A stretch of 64,000 nt of DNA from Fibrobacter sp. UWH6 (GTDB lineage Bacteria; Fibrobacterota; Fibrobacteria; Fibrobacterales; Fibrobacteraceae): contig NZ_FRAX01000002.1 in the NCBI RefSeq assembly GCF_900142465.1, positions 62,001-126,000 of the forward strand, given 5' to 3'. The notes under the pieces were generated by a model. That model did no database searches, was not told the origin of the DNA, and saw only the letters and a list, made by a program, of their open reading frames with translations. This document shows, in pieces, positions 39,553-52,293 of this stretch (the stretch's first letter is position 1; each line of letters starts with the position of its first letter). A program made the position numbers and the translations under genes.

Positions 39553-40206
39553 TTATTCCTCCTCCCCTTCTGCATCAAAGTTATCTTCTACAACATCTTC
39601 GTTTTGAGGACCGGCATTCAACATTTTTTCGCGAACACCAGCGACAAATGTGGCGAATTCAGATTCATCTAAAGCGAATTGAATCGACGGATAAAGAACA
39701 ATCACACGTTCATTATCCGCAGCATTCCAATTGACAAAAATCAAATTATATCTTGCAAAAAGTTGCAACGCTGTTTTAAGATTGCTCTTAATATCAAAAG
39801 CACCCTTAAACTCAAACTTCTCCAATTCCGCATTCAGTTCTGGGAAAGTCGTCGTAATTTGCTTGGAAAGTGATCCTGATTGAATCTTGTCCATATACAA
39901 GGTCCACAAACAGCAAAGAATGATGCTCTGGAATTTATTGAATTTTTGCTTTGAAACAACAACATCGGAGCTGTCATTTTGGAGCATCACAACCCCATTA
40001 TCCTTCACAATAATATCAAAGCCAATCAAGTTAAGATAATCCGAGAATAGTCCTTCATTCGATTTAACAAAGAAGAACATCTTGCGGTTATCTTCATCCA
40101 TATCGCGGACAATGAAGGTTTCTTTCAAAAGACGGCGGCAACATTTTTTGAACAATAATTGTTCCGAGGAAGTAAGGTCATCCCACATTTCATTAATTGT
40201 TGACAT
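39553..40206 (-). CDS. jetB: Wadjet subunit JetB (MukE-like)
   Basis: 217 aa from the ATG at 40206 (STINEMWDDLTSSEQLLFKK); an in-frame start at 40251 would extend the overlap with jetA. It has tandem winged-helix character with an acidic C-terminus (EDVVEDNFDAEGEEE), as expected for the MukE-like kite subunit (DUF4194/DUF6063 type). The identification rests mainly on position between JetA and JetC and on size. It overlaps jetA by 14 bp. Confidence 0.8.
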   Translation of the reverse strand: MSTINEMWDDLTSSEQLLFKKCCRRLLKETFIVRDMDEDNRKMFFFVKSNEGLFSDYLNLIGFDIIVKDNGVVMLQNDSSDVVVSKQKFNKFQSIILCCLWTLYMDKIQSGSLSKQITTTFPELNAELEKFEFKGAFDIKSNLKTALQLFARYNLIFVNWNAADNERVIVLYPSIQFALDESEFATFVAGVREKMLNAGPQNEDVVEDNFDAEGEEE

Positions 40207-41596
40207 TTTTCTTTGCCCTCCAATGTCGAACCTTAAATTCTTCTGATTCAATAAAATCTTCGTCGGTTTCTACCAAATAACCATTATCGCGAGCGTAAGT
40301 CACAGCTGCCATAGACGCAAGAACATCTTTTTTCTCATTCAATCGAAGATTAGAACTGTCAATCTTTCCATTAATTGATTGGTTTTCTAGGAATTTCGCC
40401 ATTAATTCCTTGGAATACGGATTATGCGATTCCTTCTGCAATTGAATTTTTTGACGTTCACGCTCTTCTACACTCATTTCGACAAGGTCAGTCTCAATAT
40501 TCGATTGAGCACTTTGGTTTTTATGCGGATAGTGCAGCGATGATCTGTCTATAAATTCATAATCATGAATATGGAAGAGATACTGAATTTCATCATCTAT
40601 CTTGTTCAGTTTGTCGTCTTCTAGATTCTGGACCAAATATCGAACCGTTTCTTCAACATTTCCACGGTTATCCCGGCCTTTATTTCGAAGAATTCGTTCA
40701 CGAGCAACGGCAATCTTGATATACGCATTAATCTGATCCTTAATGCGTTTCATAATCTTGTTATAATCGTCATGGAGAAAACGTCTGGTGCTATCAAGCA
40801 TCCTTAAAACTTTTTCTTCAGCAAAGGCTCTTGTGCAACCGTCTTCATCCATGACACTTTGGGTAAGAGATCCAAAATAACCAAGACCTTTAAATTCTTC
40901 TAACCGTCTGGATATTTTCTCACGATAGAGATGGATATTTTGTTGCTGAACAAGACGAGAATATTCCTTAATAAAGTCCCCATCGCAATATTTGATAATA
41001 TTTTCAGTCAAACTGACCAGGGTTCCTTCACGGAGCATTCCCTCAATAATCTTTTTGATGGAGGTGGCGAGTTTCTTCAGAGCCGAAGACAGTTTGCGAG
41101 CTTCATCATACACCGGGGTCAAAATCAATTTATAAGGATTTTGTTCGCCTTGAGCCCAATGTTCCAAAGTATTATAAATCGTATAGATGGAGACTGAAAA
41201 TTCAGAGCGAACAGGATTCTTTAGATTTTCAATAAATTGAGCCAAGGCAAGACCGTTATCCGTCATCACAATGGTCTTTTCCAATGAAGAATCATCCGTC
41301 TCTTCTTCTAGCCAACCAGCATCCACAAAACGCCGAATAATAAAATTAGCGTTGCCATTCCAATCAGATTCTACAGGAGACACTGAAGAATCATCTTCCT
41401 GGATCTCAATGTGGTTTTCTAGTAAGAATGCGGCAATCGTATCACGGACGATATCACGCACGATTCTATACGAAATTTCATCTTCAAAAAGACCATATAT
41501 TTTCAGTAAAAGTTCTGAATATACAGCCCTGTTGGGGTTGCGACGACCAAGAATTGTGAAGAAATCAGCTGGAATTATGTCAAAAACACTGTGCAC
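40193..41596 (-). CDS. jetA: Wadjet subunit JetA (MukF-like kleisin)
   Basis: 467 aa from a GTG at 41596. An N-terminal winged-helix domain (DIIPADFFTILGRRNPNRAVYSELLLKIYGLF) and a long helical middle (ILTPVYDEARKLSSALKKLATSIKKI) resemble the PF18982-type JetA of type II-like Wadjet systems more than the DUF3375 JetA of type I. Together with JetB, JetC and JetD it forms a complete operon. TATATTTA lies 4 nt upstream of the GTG, so the operon message is probably leaderless. The C-terminal 100 residues are charged and may be disordered. Confidence 0.82.
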   Translation of the reverse strand: MHSVFDIIPADFFTILGRRNPNRAVYSELLLKIYGLFEDEISYRIVRDIVRDTIAAFLLENHIEIQEDDSSVSPVESDWNGNANFIIRRFVDAGWLEEETDDSSLEKTIVMTDNGLALAQFIENLKNPVRSEFSVSIYTIYNTLEHWAQGEQNPYKLILTPVYDEARKLSSALKKLATSIKKIIEGMLREGTLVSLTENIIKYCDGDFIKEYSRLVQQQNIHLYREKISRRLEEFKGLGYFGSLTQSVMDEDGCTRAFAEEKVLRMLDSTRRFLHDDYNKIMKRIKDQINAYIKIAVARERILRNKGRDNRGNVEETVRYLVQNLEDDKLNKIDDEIQYLFHIHDYEFIDRSSLHYPHKNQSAQSNIETDLVEMSVEERERQKIQLQKESHNPYSKELMAKFLENQSINGKIDSSNLRLNEKKDVLASMAAVTYARDNGYLVETDEDFIESEEFKVRHWRAKKNVNN

Positions 41597-42876: not shown

Positions 42877-43497
42877 TTATCGCACGAAGTTCATGGGCTG
42901 CCAATCTTCTTTGGCTGGTTTTTCGGCGGTGCCGGTGGCAAACTTCTTCAGCATATAAGCCATGTTGTTTGCCAGAGTGCGCATGGTCTGCATGCCTTCT
43001 GTATCCTGGGCGGATTCCGCTTCGGCACGGCCGTAGGCGATGTTCCAATACTGGGAAGTAACGATAGGCATGTTCAGCATCTGGAAAGGCATTTGCAAAG
43101 TCTGGAATGCAGCAGTTGCACCTCCGCGGCGGCAGCAGCAAACAGCGGCGGCGGGCTTACCCTGGAAATGGGCTCCGGCAGCATAAGCCATACGCTGGAT
43201 CAGGGAAAGTACGGAACCGTTGGGCTGACCCCAATAAACCGGAGAGCCAACGATCAATGCGTCGCTGGTTTCCATCTTGGCGATGACTTCGTTACAGATG
43301 TCTTCGTCAAAGGCGCAGCGGCAATTACCCTTGGTCTTGCAGACGTTACAGGCGATGCAACCGCGAACAGCCTTGTTGCCGATCCATACGATTTCGCTGT
43401 CGATGCCGTTCTTCTTCAGCTGTTCTGCAGCCTCGTTCAGGGCGGTAAAAGTGTTGCCGTTCTTGCGGGGGCTTCCGTTAATCAATAAAACTTTCAT
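42877..43497 (-). CDS. NADPH-dependent FMN reductase-family flavoprotein
   Basis: 206 aa flavodoxin-like: INGSPRKNGNTFTALNEA, then CIACNVCKTKGNCRCAFDED with several Cys as in iron-sulfur flavoproteins, GSPVYWGQPNGSVLSLIQR, and a C-terminal extension. It starts 16 bp after tatC with a TGAGGTAAC site and is probably the last gene of the DUF362/Tat operon. It is cytoplasmic and likely supplies electrons, or removes them, for that operon's function. Confidence 0.85.
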   Translation of the reverse strand: MKVLLINGSPRKNGNTFTALNEAAEQLKKNGIDSEIVWIGNKAVRGCIACNVCKTKGNCRCAFDEDICNEVIAKMETSDALIVGSPVYWGQPNGSVLSLIQRMAYAAGAHFQGKPAAAVCCCRRGGATAAFQTLQMPFQMLNMPIVTSQYWNIAYGRAEAESAQDTEGMQTMRTLANNMAYMLKKFATGTAEKPAKEDWQPMNFVR

Positions 43498-43512: not shown

Positions 43513-44421
43513 TTAAAATGGTTTCCAGTCGTTGGCGTTCCGCTCAGTTCCAACTTGATACGGAGAAGTCGGTTTTGTAAAATCCACATCGTCTTGGGAA
43601 TCTTTATTTGCAGATTTCTGCGTCGCGGAATCTTGGGTGCTGCGCGATTTCTGAGTTTTCGGTTCCACGCGAACGGGAGAATTCTCTTCGCCACACTCCT
43701 TGAACTGCTCACCTTTATACTTTCGTGCGGCAAACAAGCCTGCTTCAAAAAGTAAATAGGTAGGAGCACCCAGAATCAGCTGGCTGATAATATCCGGCGG
43801 AGTCAGCAAAGCGGCCAACACAAGGATGCCCACCACCACATAAGGGCGTGCGTGACAGACTGTTTCGTAATAAACAACGCCAGAGCGAATCAGAGCGTAA
43901 GTCACCAGCGGGAACTGGAACATACAACCAAAAGCTAGCGACAGCCACAGTGCCAATGTAACGATATTTTCTACTCCAAAAATTGGCTGTAGAGTTTCGC
44001 TTTCAAAACTCATACCGAAACGCACCACCAGCGGAAAGCAAATTCCCAGGCAGAACACGACACCTGAAATAAAAAGTCCGCTAGTAATCCACACAATGGA
44101 ACGAACAAATTTTCGTTCATTTTCATAGAGACCTGGCAGTATAAATTTCCAAAGATTCCAGGCAATGTAAGGAGAACAGACAACGCAATCCGTCAGTGCC
44201 GCAATTTTCAACTGCAGCAAGAATACTTCCATGGGTGAGAAATAATGAAGAGTCGCGCCGCTCTGAGCAACAAGCTCCGCGCTGAACCAGTCAAGAATAT
44301 AGGACGACAACAAAAACATCGGGATAATCCCGATGCCTAGCGCCACAAAACAGTGAATCAGCGCCGTACGCAAGGCCTCCAAGTGAGAGACCAACGTCTG
44401 TTCCTGATCTTCTTTTTTCAT
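43513..44421 (-). CDS. tatC: Sec-independent translocase subunit TatC
   Basis: 302 aa with six helices and TatC landmarks: LVSHLEALRTALIHC at the N-terminus, YFSPMEVFLLQLKIA and the loop FGMSFESETLQ. The last 60 residues are a polar tail rich in Ser/Gln/Lys (about residues 242-302) not found in standard TatC. With TatA next door and two twin-arginine substrates upstream, this looks like a dedicated Tat system. Whether the chromosome has another tatC cannot be seen here. Confidence 0.92.
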   Translation of the reverse strand: MKKEDQEQTLVSHLEALRTALIHCFVALGIGIIPMFLLSSYILDWFSAELVAQSGATLHYFSPMEVFLLQLKIAALTDCVVCSPYIAWNLWKFILPGLYENERKFVRSIVWITSGLFISGVVFCLGICFPLVVRFGMSFESETLQPIFGVENIVTLALWLSLAFGCMFQFPLVTYALIRSGVVYYETVCHARPYVVVGILVLAALLTPPDIISQLILGAPTYLLFEAGLFAARKYKGEQFKECGEENSPVRVEPKTQKSRSTQDSATQKSANKDSQDDVDFTKPTSPYQVGTERNANDWKPF

Positions 44422-44810: not shown

Positions 44811-45800
44811 TTACAAAACTTCCACCAGTTTGTACTTGCGGGAACCCATCTTATGGTGTTCCATGGCGTCAAGCTGATGCAAGCCTTCGCGGGACTCGAT
44901 GCGTTCCTTCAGGTCAGCAAGTTCCTTAGGCGGAAGTTTATAGACCATATCGATGCTAGCCTGGTCCACAGCAAGAATATCGGTAGATGCAAGGATACCG
45001 ATGTCACGGCAGGTGGGTTCTGCGGCGCTTGTACCGGCGCAGTCGCAGTCCACGGACATACGGCGTAACACGTTGATGAAGCACATTTTGCCCTTGAAAT
45101 GATCGCAGGTTGCCTTGGCGGAGTCGCCCATCAGTTCCATGAACTTGGCGCCCATAATCCAGTCGGCAGAGGCGTTCACGTCGGAAGTATTCAGGTGGAC
45201 TTCACGCTTGCCAATCTGACCGCCGGCACAGCCGATAGCAATGTTTTTCATGGAACCGCCGAAACCACCCATGGCGTGACCCTTGAAGTGGGTAAATACC
45301 ACCATAGAATCGTAGTTCAGCATGTGCTTACCTACATGCAGTTCCTTCAGCCAATAGCCGTCCTTCACCGGAATAGGAGTTTCGCCGTCTTCGTCCATAA
45401 TGTCGACGACCGTGAACTTGGTAAAGCCATTGACTTCGAGAGCCTTGCGGTGATCTGCGGTAGTATAGCGGCCGCCCTGATACAGGGTGTTGGTCTCTAC
45501 GATGGTGCTGTCGGGAATAGCCTTCTGCAAGGCTTCATCCCATTCGCGGGGAATAATGTTCGGGCCGTTGGGTTCGCCAGTGTGGAGCTTGATGGCCACC
45601 TTGCCAGAGATGTTCTGTTTCACCTTTTCGTAAAGTTTCAGAACGCCAGCGGCACTGAGATCCTTGGTAAAATAGACGGTAGACACCTTGTCCTCCTTGG
45701 AGTTTTTTGCAGGAGCAGCGTTAGCGGCGTTTGCAGCACTTGCAAGACCAGCTACAGCAACGGCACCTGCAGAAGCCTTCAGAAAATCACGACGATCCAT
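44811..45800 (-). CDS. Tat-exported DUF362 protein, LarA-like residue pattern (copy 2)
   Basis: 329 aa from the ATG at 45800, which has an AGAAGG site and puts the twin-arginine motif DRRDFLK at the N-terminus; an ATG at 45824 would overlap the preceding gene. The DUF362 domain contains HTGEPNGPNI, ADHRKAL (His117), FKGHAMGGFGGSMKNIAIG (His175, Lys185), REVH (His202) and a C-terminal CDCAG...C. His175-x9-Lys185 and the later His copy the spacing of LarA His174-Lys184-His200, which hold the nickel-pincer cofactor. I infer an exported NPN-dependent enzyme; function is otherwise unknown. Confidence 0.8.
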   Translation of the reverse strand: MDRRDFLKASAGAVAVAGLASAANAANAAPAKNSKEDKVSTVYFTKDLSAAGVLKLYEKVKQNISGKVAIKLHTGEPNGPNIIPREWDEALQKAIPDSTIVETNTLYQGGRYTTADHRKALEVNGFTKFTVVDIMDEDGETPIPVKDGYWLKELHVGKHMLNYDSMVVFTHFKGHAMGGFGGSMKNIAIGCAGGQIGKREVHLNTSDVNASADWIMGAKFMELMGDSAKATCDHFKGKMCFINVLRRMSVDCDCAGTSAAEPTCRDIGILASTDILAVDQASIDMVYKLPPKELADLKERIESREGLHQLDAMEHHKMGSRKYKLVEVL

Positions 45801-45813
45801 AACGGCCTTCTTA

Positions 45814-46821
45814 TTAGAATTCAATAATACGATACTTGCGGTTGCCCATCTTCAGAGCTTCCATGGCAGGGAGCTGATGCAGGCCTTCGCGAGTTTCGAT
45901 ACGTTCCTTGATATCCTTCAGTTCGCCAATGGGCAGCTTGTAAACCATGTCTACGCTGGCCTGGTCCACAGCGAGAATATCGGTGGAAGCAAGGATACCG
46001 ATGTCACGGCAGGTGGGTTCGGCAGCGCCAACGCCAGCACAGTCGCAGTCCACGGACATACGGCGCAGCACATTGATAAAGCACATCTTGCCCTTAAAGT
46101 GATTGACGGTTGCCTTGCCGGATTCAGCCATGGCTTCCATGAAGCGCTTGCCGCTATTGCTCCACTTGGGGTAAAGTTCCGGCTTTGCATTATAATCCGG
46201 ATCTTCCATCTTTTCGTGAATCATCTTCTTGCCCACATTGGCGTCGGCACAGCCGATGGCGATGTTCTTGAGGGAACCGCCGAAACCGCCCATGGTATGG
46301 CCCTTGAAGTGTGTCAGCACCACCATGGAATCGTAATTCACGATGTGGCCGCCCATGCTCATTTCCTTAAAGTGCTTGCCGCCAGGAACAGGGAGCATCA
46401 CCGTACCTTCTTCGTCCATGATGTCCACGGGGCAGAAAGTCCAGCCGTTTACCTTCAAGGTTTCGCGATGCTTTTCGGTAGTATCGCGGTCGCTGGGATG
46501 GTAGTAGGTGTTGGTTTCCACAATGTTGGAATTGGGAATCAGGGCCTGCACAGCCTTCACCCATTCGCGGGGCAAAATGTTGGGGCCATTCTTTTCGCCG
46601 GTGTGAACCTTGATGGCCACCTTACCGGAAATGTTCTGGTTCACCTTGTTATAAAGTTTGATTAGACCTTCAGCAGAAAGATCCTTGGTGAAGTAGACGT
46701 TGGAAACATCCTTGCCCGCTTCCTTTACTTCCTGATTCTTGGGCTTACCAAAAACGGGTGTAGCCATGGCGCTAATGAGTGCAGCGGAACCTACAGTCTT
46801 TATAAAATCACGACGGTCCAT
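45814..46821 (-). CDS. Tat-exported DUF362 protein, LarA-like residue pattern (copy 1)
   Basis: 335 aa with twin-arginine signal MDRRDFIKTVGSAAL. It is clearly paralogous to the next gene. Key points: HTGEKNGPNI near 73, His118 in EKHRE, FKGHTMGGFGGSLKNIAIG (His175, Lys185), MIHEK (His202), and Cys259, Cys261 and Cys271 near the C-terminus. An insertion near 205-220 is absent from the paralogue. DUF362 proteins are described elsewhere as uncharacterised, often Fe-S-linked. The Tat signal implies export after folding and cofactor insertion. Its start follows the stop of the 99-aa membrane gene directly. Confidence 0.82.
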   Translation of the reverse strand: MDRRDFIKTVGSAALISAMATPVFGKPKNQEVKEAGKDVSNVYFTKDLSAEGLIKLYNKVNQNISGKVAIKVHTGEKNGPNILPREWVKAVQALIPNSNIVETNTYYHPSDRDTTEKHRETLKVNGWTFCPVDIMDEEGTVMLPVPGGKHFKEMSMGGHIVNYDSMVVLTHFKGHTMGGFGGSLKNIAIGCADANVGKKMIHEKMEDPDYNAKPELYPKWSNSGKRFMEAMAESGKATVNHFKGKMCFINVLRRMSVDCDCAGVGAAEPTCRDIGILASTDILAVDQASVDMVYKLPIGELKDIKERIETREGLHQLPAMEALKMGNRKYRIIEF

Positions 46822-47121
46822 TTAAGCCACCTTATGGAAACGACCCTTGGGGTCTTTAATGAGGAGCATGGCAAGCCAAATCACAAGGCCAAATGCCACA
46901 GCGGAGAAACCCAGGAAAGCGTCATTCAGCATGTCGCCTGCAGCCGGGGTGAAAAATTCAGCGCGAAGTTCTGCATATTCAAAAATGGCATCTACGAACC
47001 ACATGAGGGATGCGCCCCAGTACATGTAGCACAAGGGAGAAAGACGCATCTTGTTCTCAACATCGCGGTACCAAAGAGCGGTGCAGATAATCGCTGCAAA
47101 AACAGTGATGAGAAGGGTCAT
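46822..47121 (-). CDS. Small membrane protein of the DUF362/Tat operon
   Basis: 99 aa with three hydrophobic segments (LLITVFAAIICTALWY; LCYMYWGASLMWFVDAIFEYAE; AFLGFSAVAFGLVIWLAMLLI). No family recognised. The start overlaps the stop of the upstream 131-aa gene (TAATG) and its stop abuts the start of the first DUF362 gene, so it is translated as part of the unit. With its upstream neighbour it may form a membrane anchor or electron-transfer pair for the exported enzymes. Confidence 0.7.
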   Translation of the reverse strand: MTLLITVFAAIICTALWYRDVENKMRLSPLCYMYWGASLMWFVDAIFEYAELRAEFFTPAAGDMLNDAFLGFSAVAFGLVIWLAMLLIKDPKGRFHKVA

Positions 47122-48403: not shown

Positions 48404-49153
48404 ATGAAAGATGAAAAGTTTGACGATATCGGTTTTGCAAAGCTGGATGTAAGCCGCGAGAACCGAACCGGCACCAGCGAGGCCATTTTCTGCCCCGGCA
48501 AGACCAAGGAACAACTGTTAAAGATTCTTGAAACCTTCGCCAAAAACGGGTGTTCTGTACTGGGGACAAAATGCACTAGGGAACAAGCTGATTTTGTACA
48601 AGAAATGTTGAATGGCGCATCTGGTAAAAGCGGGGCCACGAACGCACCGGCAATTCGTTACGACGAGACTTCCAGAATCTTGACCATGAAGGTTAAGAGG
48701 ACCGCAAAAAGATCTGCGAATGCGAAAGTCGCGAGAGCAGGCCGTTCACTTAAAGATTCCGTAGCCGTATGTTGTGCAGGAACCGCCGACTTGCCCATCG
48801 CCGAAGAAGCCGCCCAGACCGCAGAATTTTTCGGAGCCAAGGTTGAGCGCCACTTTGACGTAGGCATCGCAGGCCTTCACCGACTTCTTTCAAAGATGGA
48901 TGAAATCCGCAAGGCCGATGTCGTTATTGCTGTTGCAGGCATGGAAGGCGCATTGGCAGGCGTTATCGCAGGACTTACAAAAGCCCCCGTGATTGCAGTC
49001 CCAACCTCTGTTGGCTACGGAGCATCCTTCAACGGACTGAGCCCGCTTTTGACCATGCTGAACACCTGCGCGGAAGGGGTTTCCGTAGTGAACATCGACA
49101 ACGGTTATGGCGCCGCCGTCAGTGCAGTGAGAATGTTACGCATCAAAAAGTAA
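48404..49153 (+). CDS. larB: LarB, NaAD carboxylase/hydrolase of nickel-pincer cofactor synthesis
   Basis: 249 aa. The N-terminal FAKLDVSRENRTGTSEAIFCPGKTKEQLLKIL and the PurE-like C-terminal domain (CCAGTADLPIAEEAAQTAEFFG, then VVIAVAGMEGALAGVIAGL and VPTSVGYG) define LarB. It carboxylates the pyridine ring of nicotinic acid adenine dinucleotide and cleaves off AMP, the first step to NPN. Length is standard (about 246 aa). It is the first gene of larB-larC-larE and is driven by the MerR-type promoter. Confidence 0.92.
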   Translation: MKDEKFDDIGFAKLDVSRENRTGTSEAIFCPGKTKEQLLKILETFAKNGCSVLGTKCTREQADFVQEMLNGASGKSGATNAPAIRYDETSRILTMKVKRTAKRSANAKVARAGRSLKDSVAVCCAGTADLPIAEEAAQTAEFFGAKVERHFDVGIAGLHRLLSKMDEIRKADVVIAVAGMEGALAGVIAGLTKAPVIAVPTSVGYGASFNGLSPLLTMLNTCAEGVSVVNIDNGYGAAVSAVRMLRIKK

Positions 49154-49210: not shown

Positions 49211-50554
49211 ATGAAATATCTTTATCTTGATGGATCTTGTGGTATCAGCGGAAACATGACTGTTGCCGCCTTGCTAGACTTAGGCGCATCCCGCGAAAGG
49301 CTTGAAGATGCAATTCACGCCATGCACCTGGAAGGAATGCATTGTCATATTGAAAGAGGCAATTCCTACAGCATCGCAGGGATGAACTTTGACGTTCATG
49401 TCCACACCCATCACGGTGAAGAAAGCGCAGACCATGTGGACGCTCACGAAGAAGGTTACGTGGAATATCACCACGAGCATAATCACGAGCACCATCATGA
49501 TCATTGCGAAGGGCATCATCACGAACATGGTCACCACCATGAGCACCGCCACCTGGCAGAAGTTTACCACATTCTAGAACATGCCGCCGGACATTGCGCA
49601 GAACACAATCCTGCCGCACCCGCATTTTCTAGCAACGCCCTGGATACCGCCAAGAAAATTTTCCGCATTATCGCAGAAGCCGAAGCAAAGGCCCACGGCG
49701 TCGCTGTTGAAGAGGTCCACTTCCACGAAGTTGGCGCCATTGATTCCATCGTCGACATTATGGCGGTGGCCGTTCTTGTTGACGACCTGCGAGAAAAATT
49801 CGGCATCGAAAAGTGCGTGGTGACAGGGCTTAACGAAGGCTCCGGATTTGTGCAGACTCAGCACGGAATGCTTCCCATTCCCGTTCCCGCCGTTGCAAGT
49901 ATCGCAGAGGCCGCAGGCATCGCCCTGCACGTTACCGATACCAAGGGCGAAATGGTCACCCCTACAGGCATTGGCATCGTAGCCGCACTACGCACCAGCG
50001 AAAAACTTCCGGAGCAGTACAAAATTTTAAAGACAGGCATCGGCCTTGGAAAGCGAGATTTCGGAAGAGCCAATTTCTTGCGGGCACAGATTATTGAAGA
50101 TGTTGAAGTTCGCGCCGCAGGTTGCGAAAATATTTTCATGATCGAATGTAACATCGATGATCAAAGTCCCGAGGAATTGGGGCTTGCCTTGGAAAAGATT
50201 TTTGAATCCGGTGCAAGAGACGTTCATTACGTTCCCTGCTACATGAAGAAGAACCGCCCCGCAGTGATCCTGCGAGTTCTTGCCGACGAAGAAAAGTTAC
50301 CGCAAATTGAAACCGCAATTTTCCGCCACACAACGACGGTTGGCCTCAGGCGTTATCCCGTAAGCCGCACTTGCATGAACCGCAGTTTCGCTGACATTGC
50401 AACACCTTACGGAACCGTCACCGTCAAGAAATGTGAGCTGGGCGACATTGTGAAGTACAAGCCGGAGTTCGATAGCGTCAAGAAAGTTGCAGACCAAGCA
50501 GGCGTCACCTACCGCGAAGTTTCCGACGCCGCCAAGGCAAACGCAAAATTCTAA
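49211..50554 (+). CDS. larC: LarC, nickel insertase of the pincer cofactor
   Basis: 447 aa. MKYLYLDGSCGISGNMTVAALLDLG is the LarC start, and IECNIDDQSPEELG opens the C-terminal half. The central region (about residues 73-125) is extraordinarily His-rich (HHEHNHEHHHDH and similar), as expected of a nickel store. LarC inserts Ni into the dithiolated nucleotide in a CTP-dependent cyclometallation. In Lactiplantibacillus plantarum larC is made by a frameshift between two ORFs; here it is one continuous frame. Confidence 0.95.
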   Translation: MKYLYLDGSCGISGNMTVAALLDLGASRERLEDAIHAMHLEGMHCHIERGNSYSIAGMNFDVHVHTHHGEESADHVDAHEEGYVEYHHEHNHEHHHDHCEGHHHEHGHHHEHRHLAEVYHILEHAAGHCAEHNPAAPAFSSNALDTAKKIFRIIAEAEAKAHGVAVEEVHFHEVGAIDSIVDIMAVAVLVDDLREKFGIEKCVVTGLNEGSGFVQTQHGMLPIPVPAVASIAEAAGIALHVTDTKGEMVTPTGIGIVAALRTSEKLPEQYKILKTGIGLGKRDFGRANFLRAQIIEDVEVRAAGCENIFMIECNIDDQSPEELGLALEKIFESGARDVHYVPCYMKKNRPAVILRVLADEEKLPQIETAIFRHTTTVGLRRYPVSRTCMNRSFADIATPYGTVTVKKCELGDIVKYKPEFDSVKKVADQAGVTYREVSDAAKANAKF

Positions 50555-50644
50555 GGTTCAAAACATCAGCGACGTTTTTGTAAATCGCAGCCTACACACA
50601 ACTTGCAGCTCCCGCAGTTCATAAACGTCGCAAAAAAGGGTCTC

Positions 50645-51475
50645 ATGAATCTACAAGAAAAGAAAGAACGTCTTCAGGAAATTCTCCGCAGCTATGGCAA
50701 GGTGGCCATCGCCTATTCCAGCGGCGTAGATTCTACGTTCCTTCTAAAAGTAGCTCACGATACCTTAGGCGATAACGCCATCGCCATTACGGTAAAGTCC
50801 CTCCTGGTTTCCGCGGCGGAAATGGACGAAGCGGAAGCATTCTGCAAACGCGAAAATATTCGCCACCAATTCATCATTCACGACGAAATGTCCGTGCCAG
50901 GATTCGCAGAAAATCCACCTAACCGCTGCTATATCTGCAAAAGGCAAATTTTCTCATCCATTCAAGCCACCGTGCGAGATGAGTTCGTCGTCTGCGAAGG
51001 CAGCAATAAGGACGACGAAGGGGATTACCGCCCCGGCATGAAAGCCATCGCAGAACTTTCCGTCAAGAGTCCCCTGCGAGAAGCCGGACTCACTAAGGCT
51101 GAGATCCGCGAACTTTCCCGGGAACTCAGCCTCCCCACCGCAAGCAAGCCCTCATTCGCCTGCCTCGCCAGCCGCATACCCTACGGTCAGATCATTACAA
51201 GACAAAAATTGCAGTTGGTCGAAACCGCCGAAAAATTCCTGCAGGATTTAGGTTTCGTGCAATACAGAGTGCGCTGCCGCGAGGCCTCCCCCGCAACCTC
51301 CCTTACTGCTTCCATCGAACTTCTCCCCGAGCAATTCAATCTGTTTAAAACAAATCAAGAACTTATCATCCAGACTCTCAAAAACCTCGGCTTCGCAGAA
51401 GTTCGTCTCGACGAAAAAGGCTACCGCACCGGCAGCCTGAATGAAGCTCTAGGAATTAAGCACCCAGTCCCATAA
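50645..51475 (+). CDS. larE: LarE, sulfur transferase of the pincer cofactor
   Basis: 276 aa from the ATG at 50645. The PP-loop IAYSSGVDSTFLLKVAHD binds ATP. NRCYICKRQIF, CEGSNKDDEGDYRPG and FACLASRIPYG are LarE landmarks. Cys173 of ACLASR is near where the sulfur-donating cysteine or cluster ligand is expected, but I cannot tell from this alone whether the enzyme is of the sacrificial-Cys or the Fe-S type. It converts the two carboxylates to thiocarboxylates. A terminator follows. With LarB and LarC the pathway is complete. Confidence 0.93.
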   Translation: MNLQEKKERLQEILRSYGKVAIAYSSGVDSTFLLKVAHDTLGDNAIAITVKSLLVSAAEMDEAEAFCKRENIRHQFIIHDEMSVPGFAENPPNRCYICKRQIFSSIQATVRDEFVVCEGSNKDDEGDYRPGMKAIAELSVKSPLREAGLTKAEIRELSRELSLPTASKPSFACLASRIPYGQIITRQKLQLVETAEKFLQDLGFVQYRVRCREASPATSLTASIELLPEQFNLFKTNQELIIQTLKNLGFAEVRLDEKGYRTGSLNEALGIKHPVP

Positions 51476-51589: not shown

Positions 51590-51808
51590 ATGTGTACCGC
51601 AAAGGAACTAGAATTCTCTGTTTTTGTCATTCATAAGTTGGCCTCTGCCTGGGGAAAAACTCCAGCGGAGGTTTATGCAGTTTTGAACGATACGAAAATT
51701 CTAGACGACTATTTAATCCCCTGTTACGACACATTACACACGATGGGATCCGAAGCTGTCACGGCTGAACTGACAGACTTTGCTCGTGAACGCGGGGTTG
51801 CCGTATGA
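51590..51808 (+). CDS. DUF3791 protein (putative antitoxin 1)
   Basis: 72 aa. KELEFSVFVIHKLASAWGKTPAEVYAVLNDTKILDDYLIPCYDTLHTMG is typical of DUF3791 proteins, which sit next to DUF3990 genes. It is small, helical and probably DNA- or toxin-binding. The stop overlaps the start of the DUF3990 gene by 4 bp (ATGA), so synthesis is coupled, as in toxin-antitoxin pairs. Confidence 0.78.
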   Translation: MCTAKELEFSVFVIHKLASAWGKTPAEVYAVLNDTKILDDYLIPCYDTLHTMGSEAVTAELTDFARERGVAV

Positions 51809-52293
51809 TAGTCTATCATGGTTCCACAAAAATCATTGAAAAACCGCAAATCGGTTTTTCTAAAAAATATCTTGATTTCGGCGAAGGGTTTTATGTCACC
51901 ACATTTCAGAAACAAGCCGAAAAATGGGCAAAGCGCAAGGCTCTTCGTTATGGTGAAAAAGCTTTCGTAAACGTCTATGACATGAGTGAATCTTTTGAAC
52001 CTTTAAAAAGCCTAAACTTTGATTCCGCTGATGAAAAGTGGCTAGATTTCGTTTGCGCCTGTCGCCGTGGTGAAAATCTTAATCAGACTTTTGACATCAT
52101 TTGCGGGAATGTGGCTGACGATGATGTGTTCAAGACGATTGACATGTACTTTCGTGGTCTATGGGACAAAGAAAAAACTTTAGCCGAGCTTCGCTATTTT
52201 CAACAAAACAACCAGATCTGTTTTGTGACACAGCTTGCAATTGATTCTCTTTTAAAATTCAATCGAAGCTATGAGGTAAAAGTAGATGGATAA
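51805..52293 (+). CDS. DUF3990 ADP-ribosyltransferase-like protein (putative toxin)
   Basis: 162 aa. MIVYHGSTKIIEKPQIGF and the LDFGEGFYVTTFQKQAEKWAKRKA element are the DUF3990 hallmark, resembling the ART fold: YHGS-type NAD-binding strand, then a G-F-Y-x-T-T loop. A late Glu/Gln stretch (QNNQICFVTQLAI) marks the last strand. By family logic it would transfer ADP-ribose from NAD+ to a cellular target unless neutralised by the flanking DUF3791 proteins. Target unknown. Confidence 0.78.
   Translation: MIVYHGSTKIIEKPQIGFSKKYLDFGEGFYVTTFQKQAEKWAKRKALRYGEKAFVNVYDMSESFEPLKSLNFDSADEKWLDFVCACRRGENLNQTFDIICGNVADDDVFKTIDMYFRGLWDKEKTLAELRYFQQNNQICFVTQLAIDSLLKFNRSYEVKVDG

Follow-up and report, generated by a model that had tools for sequence, protein, structure and literature searches.

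Tandem DUF362 proteins with a predicted LarA fold adjoin larBCE in a Fibrobacter genome lacking LarA and are candidate NPN users

In a window of 64,000 nucleotides from Fibrobacter sp. UWH6 (contig NZ_FRAX01000002.1, positions 62,001 to 126,000), two tandem DUF362 genes lie beside a complete set of genes for synthesis of the nickel-pincer nucleotide (NPN), a rare nickel cofactor. The LarA fold, the key residues, the adjacency of larBCE and the absence of LarA together make the DUF362 pair good candidates for NPN users in a larA-less genome. We lean modestly toward the view that both proteins are exported LarA-fold enzymes and clients of the NPN supplied by the neighboring larBCE genes. Nicotinic acid adenine dinucleotide is the precursor from which LarB, LarE and LarC build NPN; LarA, the nickel enzyme lactate racemase, relies on a lysine tether, a histidine nickel ligand and two acid/base histidines for a proton-coupled hydride transfer (PMC11770544, PMC12611868). 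The occurrence of larB, larC and larE without larA was reported for about 15% of the genomes surveyed; it was argued that a further NPN protein must exist, and this protein was expected to be unlike LarA in sequence and fold (PMC11796402). In the literature searched, we found no functional study of DUF362 and no description of it as an NPN client.

The larB, larC and larE genes each score above their NCBIfam equivalog cut-offs, and the NPN pathway is complete in the window. They are encoded on the opposite strand, 0.9 kb past the DUF362 transcription unit. No match to Lar_N (LarA) was found in the 99.99%-complete genome of Fibrobacter sp. UWH6. The features of the region are as follows.

42877 to 43497, minus strand: FMN_red flavoprotein (PF03358, 108.8 bits), of uncertain membership in the module
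43513 to 44421, minus strand: TatC, downstream of the DUF362 genes (TIGR00945, 163 bits against 132.7), in the same order in relatives
44811 to 45800, minus strand: DUF362 paralogue b (P0001 plus its ATG, 329 aa)
45814 to 46821, minus strand: DUF362 paralogue a (P0002, 335 aa), with a predicted LarA fold
46216 to 46218, minus strand: codon of His202 of paralogue a (LarA His200 equivalent; nickel ligand in LarA)
46267 to 46269, minus strand: codon of Lys185 of paralogue a (LarA Lys184 equivalent; NPN tether in LarA)
46297 to 46299, minus strand: codon of His175 of paralogue a (LarA His174 equivalent, from profile alignment and conservation)
46828 to 47121, minus strand: small membrane-like protein P0003, upstream of DUF362, with no Pfam family; placed alike in the close relatives L046 and L050
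47121 to 47516, minus strand: small membrane-like protein whose gene opens the DUF362 transcription unit, with no Pfam or NCBIfam family over cut-off
48404 to 49153, plus strand: larB (NF033503, 259 bits against 175)
49211 to 50554, plus strand: larC, LarC1 plus LarC2 (TIGR00299, 172.8 bits against 90; NF052512, 146.1 against 50; PF01969, 405 bits)
50603 to 51475, plus strand: larE (TIGR00268, 296.9 bits against 150)

The first gene of the DUF362 unit is conserved upstream of DUF362 across Fibrobacter-family loci, and 10 of 80 other loci, as well as several loci of the Fibrobacter family, have FMN_red close to DUF362. Elsewhere in the window, larE is followed by a gene for a DUF3990 protein (51805-52293, plus strand, 170 bits) that also matches ADP-ribosyltransferase weakly. 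The Wadjet protein JetA (PF18982, 290 bits) is encoded at 40193-41596 on the minus strand, and the long same-strand open reading frames beside it, at 39553, 36311 and 35094, could be the remaining Wadjet defence genes.

Both paralogues are clear members of DUF362 (PF04015, in Pfam clan CL0471, the "DUF362-like superfamily") and have all of the family-invariant residues; paralogues a and b reach 139.5 and 136.2 bits, respectively, against a gathering cut-off of 24, with profile positions 1-200 covered. They are tandem duplicates, with 63% protein identity and DNA repeats at 1.0 kb spacing, and are the only two DUF362 genes in the genome. Paralogue b begins with MDRRDFLK, and its Tat signal is over cut-off in both TIGR01409 (NCBIfam) and PF10518 (Pfam). 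Paralogue a begins with the twin-arginine sequence MDRRDFIK, despite which none of the TAT signal models tried was over cut-off. A Tat signal and an adjoining tatC fit a protein that is exported folded. Many DUF362 proteins have ferredoxin motifs, which the subfamily of these paralogues lacks; within DUF362, this subfamily is often Tat-exported and, in some lineages, linked to larBCE.

A preliminary description of this DNA had proposed that DUF362 and LarA are distant homologues, a proposal that both the fold search and the profile alignment bear out. The homology itself is prior knowledge, curated in Pfam: DUF362 and DUF2088/Lar_N both belong to clan CL0471, and DUF362 has been used as the outgroup of LarA (PMC11770544; the clan name is given in PMC7955657). 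Searches of PDB sequences found no DUF362 structure. For a predicted model of paralogue a (pLDDT 89.1, pTM 0.86), VIA-align placed all twelve PDB entries of the LarA family at the top (Z 13.5-15.8, with about 200 residues at 3.0-3.7 angstrom), ahead of the next fold at 4.7, and Foldseek agreed, with 6C1W as the best match (E 1.1e-7). The LarA family thus provides the top structural matches of the model, and the different fold that would have spoken against homology was not seen. The profile-profile comparison that the description had suggested (hhalign, DUF362 against eleven LarA homologues) gave a probability of 88% and an E-value of 2.8e-6. Its register pairs H175, K185 and H202 with LarA His174, Lys184 and His200, which supports the correspondence claimed for these residues, and the three positions are invariant in the alignments of both families. 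As single sequences, the paralogues match Lar_N (PF09861) with 16.8 and 12.9 bits, below the cut-off of 23.3.

The paralogues therefore resemble the LarA superfamily (PF09861; PDB 5HUQ, 6C1W, 9EIA) in fold, in the aligned His-x9-Lys and later His, and in having larBCE in the genome, but differ from it in their sub-cut-off Lar_N scores, in the change from DxTR to HTGE, in lacking an aligned His108 and in their predicted Tat export. LarA is also longer, with about 424 aa against the 335 aa of paralogue a (a difference of roughly 90), and its C-terminal part is a separate domain of about 150 residues. In the structural alignment, residue 306 is the last one of the model to be covered. We also encountered Lar_N-type proteins (L042-L044) that match Lar_N at 1.4e-13 and DUF362 weakly, at 0.0017. 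Like DUF362, they have K-N following the tether position (H-x9-K-N), whereas their length of about 420-440 aa and their DxTR and GxH motifs are LarA-like and unlike the paralogues. This family, which occurs in LarC-positive genomes and sometimes near larC (e.g., G423, G478, G370, and G411), appears to be a bridge between LarA and DUF362; we found no experimental study of it.

His175, Lys185 and His202 (numbered from the ATG) are present in both paralogues, as originally described, and an earlier histidine was likewise correctly placed at 118 in paralogue a and 117 in paralogue b. Among 84 close relatives, which span about a dozen phyla, H73, H171, H175, K185, N186, H202, C259 and C261 are kept in all 84, the two cysteines forming a conserved CDC motif, and H118 is kept in 83. 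Extending the alignment to DUF362 proteins of 15-22% identity leaves ten invariant columns: K71, G126, K173, H175, K185, N186, G190, H202, G263 and A284. The pattern K-x-H-x9-K-N-...-H recurs in ferredoxin-fused DUF362 types, in a motif table that leaves out five rows read in the wrong frame and in which two alphaproteobacterial rows have K-G. Because the H/K/H triad is kept in close and distant DUF362 proteins alike, it is the core signature of the family and no chance match.

Other active-site positions depart from those of LarA. The preliminary description had placed His117/118 where LarA has His108, which is unsupported: neither the register of hhalign nor that of Pfam Lar_N favors this pairing. 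In the profile alignment, LarA His108 falls near DUF362 residues 107-112, with no histidine aligned to it, and His117/118 lies some seven residues further on, in the subsequent helix. The HTGExNGPN segment does lie opposite the D-x-T-R segment of LarA, as had been suggested, but its residues do not correspond, with H73 in place of Asp and E76 in place of Arg. In LarA, this Asp holds the NPN ribose and the Arg binds the phosphate and the substrate carboxylate (PMC12611868, PMC11851776). DUF362 thus appears to retain the tether, the nickel-ligand and one acid/base position without the nucleotide-holding residues, and the change of Arg to Glu (E76) argues against an ordinary 2-hydroxycarboxylate substrate. 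As for the idea of a shared cofactor site, the H/K/H positions hold up, whereas the same cofactor does not follow from the residues alone, given the replaced Asp and Arg, the lack of an aligned His108 and the occurrence of H/K/H in genomes without LarB and LarC. LarASp and LarABw, which have a single catalytic histidine (PDB 9Q3K and 9Q3J), similarly keep the Lys tether and the Ni-ligand His while their other active-site residues have diverged, yet they use NPN, so that NPN use tolerates active-site change. The pattern of loss is the reverse of that in DUF362, however: LarASp and LarABw keep the ribose Asp, the phosphate Lys/Arg and the His108 equivalent and lack the His174 equivalent.

Gene context, which the preliminary description did not use, makes NPN the most likely ligand in the operon, with larBCE beside DUF362 and no LarA. 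In Fibrobacter-family relatives, one or two copies of DUF362 follow the gene for a small membrane protein in a single same-strand run that continues with TatC, LarB, LarC and LarE. In L046 and L050, the closest relatives, larE occupies the other, upstream end of the run, and larB-larC and DUF362-TatC are colinear. Compared with these, the arrangement in the window, where larBCE are together and divergent from DUF362, is a local rearrangement in which adjacency was kept. Across the genus, 13 genomes have both LarC and DUF362, one has DUF362 alone, none has LarC alone and at least 19 have neither (naive Fisher test, 2e-8, phylogeny ignored); Lar_N had no match in any genus member examined. In the LarA-less subset of 121 genomes of the phylum, DUF362 was found in 33 of 44 LarC-positive genomes versus 2 of 57 LarC-negative ones, although the tests at both levels ignore kinship and adjacent genes can be lost together. 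Two Fibrobacter genomes (L052 in G061 and L065 in G121) keep DUF362-TatC with other genes in the place of larBC and have no LarC in the genome, and the mature DUF362 protein of one of the two is identical to that of larBCE-positive relatives.

A scan of 84,980 species genomes yielded 80 DUF362 loci, four of which have larB and larC nearby. The order is DUF362-LarC-LarE-LarB in Telmatospirillum siberiense, whose genome has no Lar_N match, LarE-DUF362-LarB-LarC in Oryzomonas japonica, which has a second larBC elsewhere in the genome, and DUF362-LarB-LarC in a Rickettsiales MAG; in a Clostridiales MAG, larB/larC are about 6 kb from DUF362 on the other strand. The gene tree unites the DUF362 proteins from Fibrobacter, Telmatospirillum and Oryzomonas in a single clade of 26 members with a support of 90, indicating that ancestry or transfer contributes to the linkage; nonetheless, the gene orders differ. 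In the order to which Telmatospirillum belongs, each of the five genomes in which DUF362 matches strongly is LarC-positive, compared with 33 of 297 overall (p 1.3e-5), and four of the five have LarA too. A count of 18 of 18 LarC-positive genomes in this order was set aside, as 13 of the DUF362 matches were weak and mostly coincided with Lar_N relatives, and only the five strong ones were counted. Neighbors at unlinked DUF362 loci include aldo-keto reductase/flavodoxin fusions, FMN_red, iron alcohol dehydrogenase, cupin and AraC, which hint weakly at carbonyl or alcohol redox. Many LarC matches in Sutterellaceae, and the second larC of Oryzomonas, cover only profile positions 1-235 (LarC1), with no LarC2 match nearby; these are split, frameshifted or shortened LarC. 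Among control genomes, those of Synechococcus elongatus and Haloferax volcanii lack Lar_N but encode both LarC and DUF362. In Methanocaldococcus jannaschii and Corynebacterium glutamicum, LarC is the only one of the three, so DUF362 cannot account for every larA-less genome.

An alternative that we consider unlikely is that H/K/H is an old, clan-wide ligand site at which DUF362 holds something other than NPN (another nucleotide, a metal or a substrate), that LarA adopted the site for NPN, and that linkage to larBCE reflects shared regulation or a shared pathway. Among 79 distinct genomes that harbor a close relative, 31 have no LarC (one of these, G141, has LarB), and LarB and LarC are both absent from 22 of the first 50; in such LarC-negative genomes H/K/H is invariant, and distant DUF362 proteins with the same residues occur in a complete LarC-negative genome (G012). 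Either these residues cannot serve NPN everywhere or the organisms obtain NPN otherwise, and NPN as the ligand of all DUF362 proteins was rejected, since many genomes with DUF362 lack both LarB and LarC. The replacement of the NPN-site Asp and Arg agrees with a different ligand, and the other invariant residues H73, H171, C259 and C261 could make a different site. On the other hand, the LarC-negative genomes are often small MAGs, notably of Elusimicrobia and gut Alphaproteobacteria, and LarB and LarC are present in each of the ten genomes from named isolates within the first 50, although lineage-wide absence of LarC cannot all stem from MAG incompleteness. A non-NPN ligand would also leave unexplained why larBCE lie beside DUF362 without any LarA in Fibrobacter and Telmatospirillum, and why the linkage recurs with varied gene orders. 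Use of NPN is thus somewhat favored for the larBCE-linked proteins and unlikely for DUF362 as a whole. The export route does not help to discriminate: some relatives look Sec-exported, including one with larBC adjoining (L142), and many proteins of LarC-negative genomes resemble Sec lipoproteins. Sec export implies an unfolded protein and hence counts against export of a folded holoprotein. As a test of NPN dependence, the apparent tie between Sec-type DUF362 and absence of LarC (Fisher 6e-5) was discarded, because the tree leaves four independent pairs (starred branches) and an empty sign test.

Operon linkage and the conserved CDC motif would also suit a non-catalytic aid to NPN metabolism, such as an exported protein handling nickel, sulfur or NPN, with another protein being the NPN enzyme. 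We judge this improbable, as Tat export would part DUF362 from the cytoplasmic LarB, LarC and LarE steps, the LarA fold with its tether and nickel-ligand positions is present, and the genome has no Lar_N protein to act as that enzyme, though one from an unrelated family could do so. Finally, larBCE and DUF362 might simply be carried jointly by a mobile or accessory segment, with H/K/H reflecting common ancestry only. The module is indeed an accessory feature of the genus, and the single supported clade of linked proteins from Fibrobacter, Telmatospirillum and Oryzomonas makes the linkage events partly dependent. Even so, gene order varies among these three lineages and the Rickettsiales MAG, and in the window larBCE are inverted yet still adjoin DUF362, making incidental linkage highly improbable.

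For the preferred reading, in which the larBCE-linked DUF362 proteins are NPN clients, we infer the following course. LarB, LarE and LarC would make NPN in the cytoplasm, where it would be loaded onto the folded DUF362 protein, with Lys185 as the tether and His202 completing the nickel coordination. The folded holoprotein would then be exported by the TatC encoded alongside. Outside the membrane it may carry out an NPN-dependent hydride transfer with His175 as one acid/base, probably on a substrate other than the typical 2-hydroxycarboxylate of LarA, because the Arg that binds carboxylate and phosphate in LarA is Glu in DUF362. It is a tentative proposal, falling just short of probable, that larBCE-linked DUF362 proteins form a second, extracytoplasmic class of NPN enzymes, defined by cytoplasmic loading, Tat export and a chemistry unlike that of LarA (given the replaced carboxylate- and phosphate-binding residues), and that this class explains part of the genomes with larBCE and no larA.

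An NPN-client role would bear directly on the question, raised in the literature, of why genomes can have larBCE but no larA. The locus supplies a specific candidate that experiments can examine, namely a protein of LarA fold that keeps the positions of the tether and the nickel ligand and shares an operon with larBCE. If the proposed role is correct, it would provide a first function for part of the large DUF362 family and, to our knowledge, the first exported NPN enzyme.
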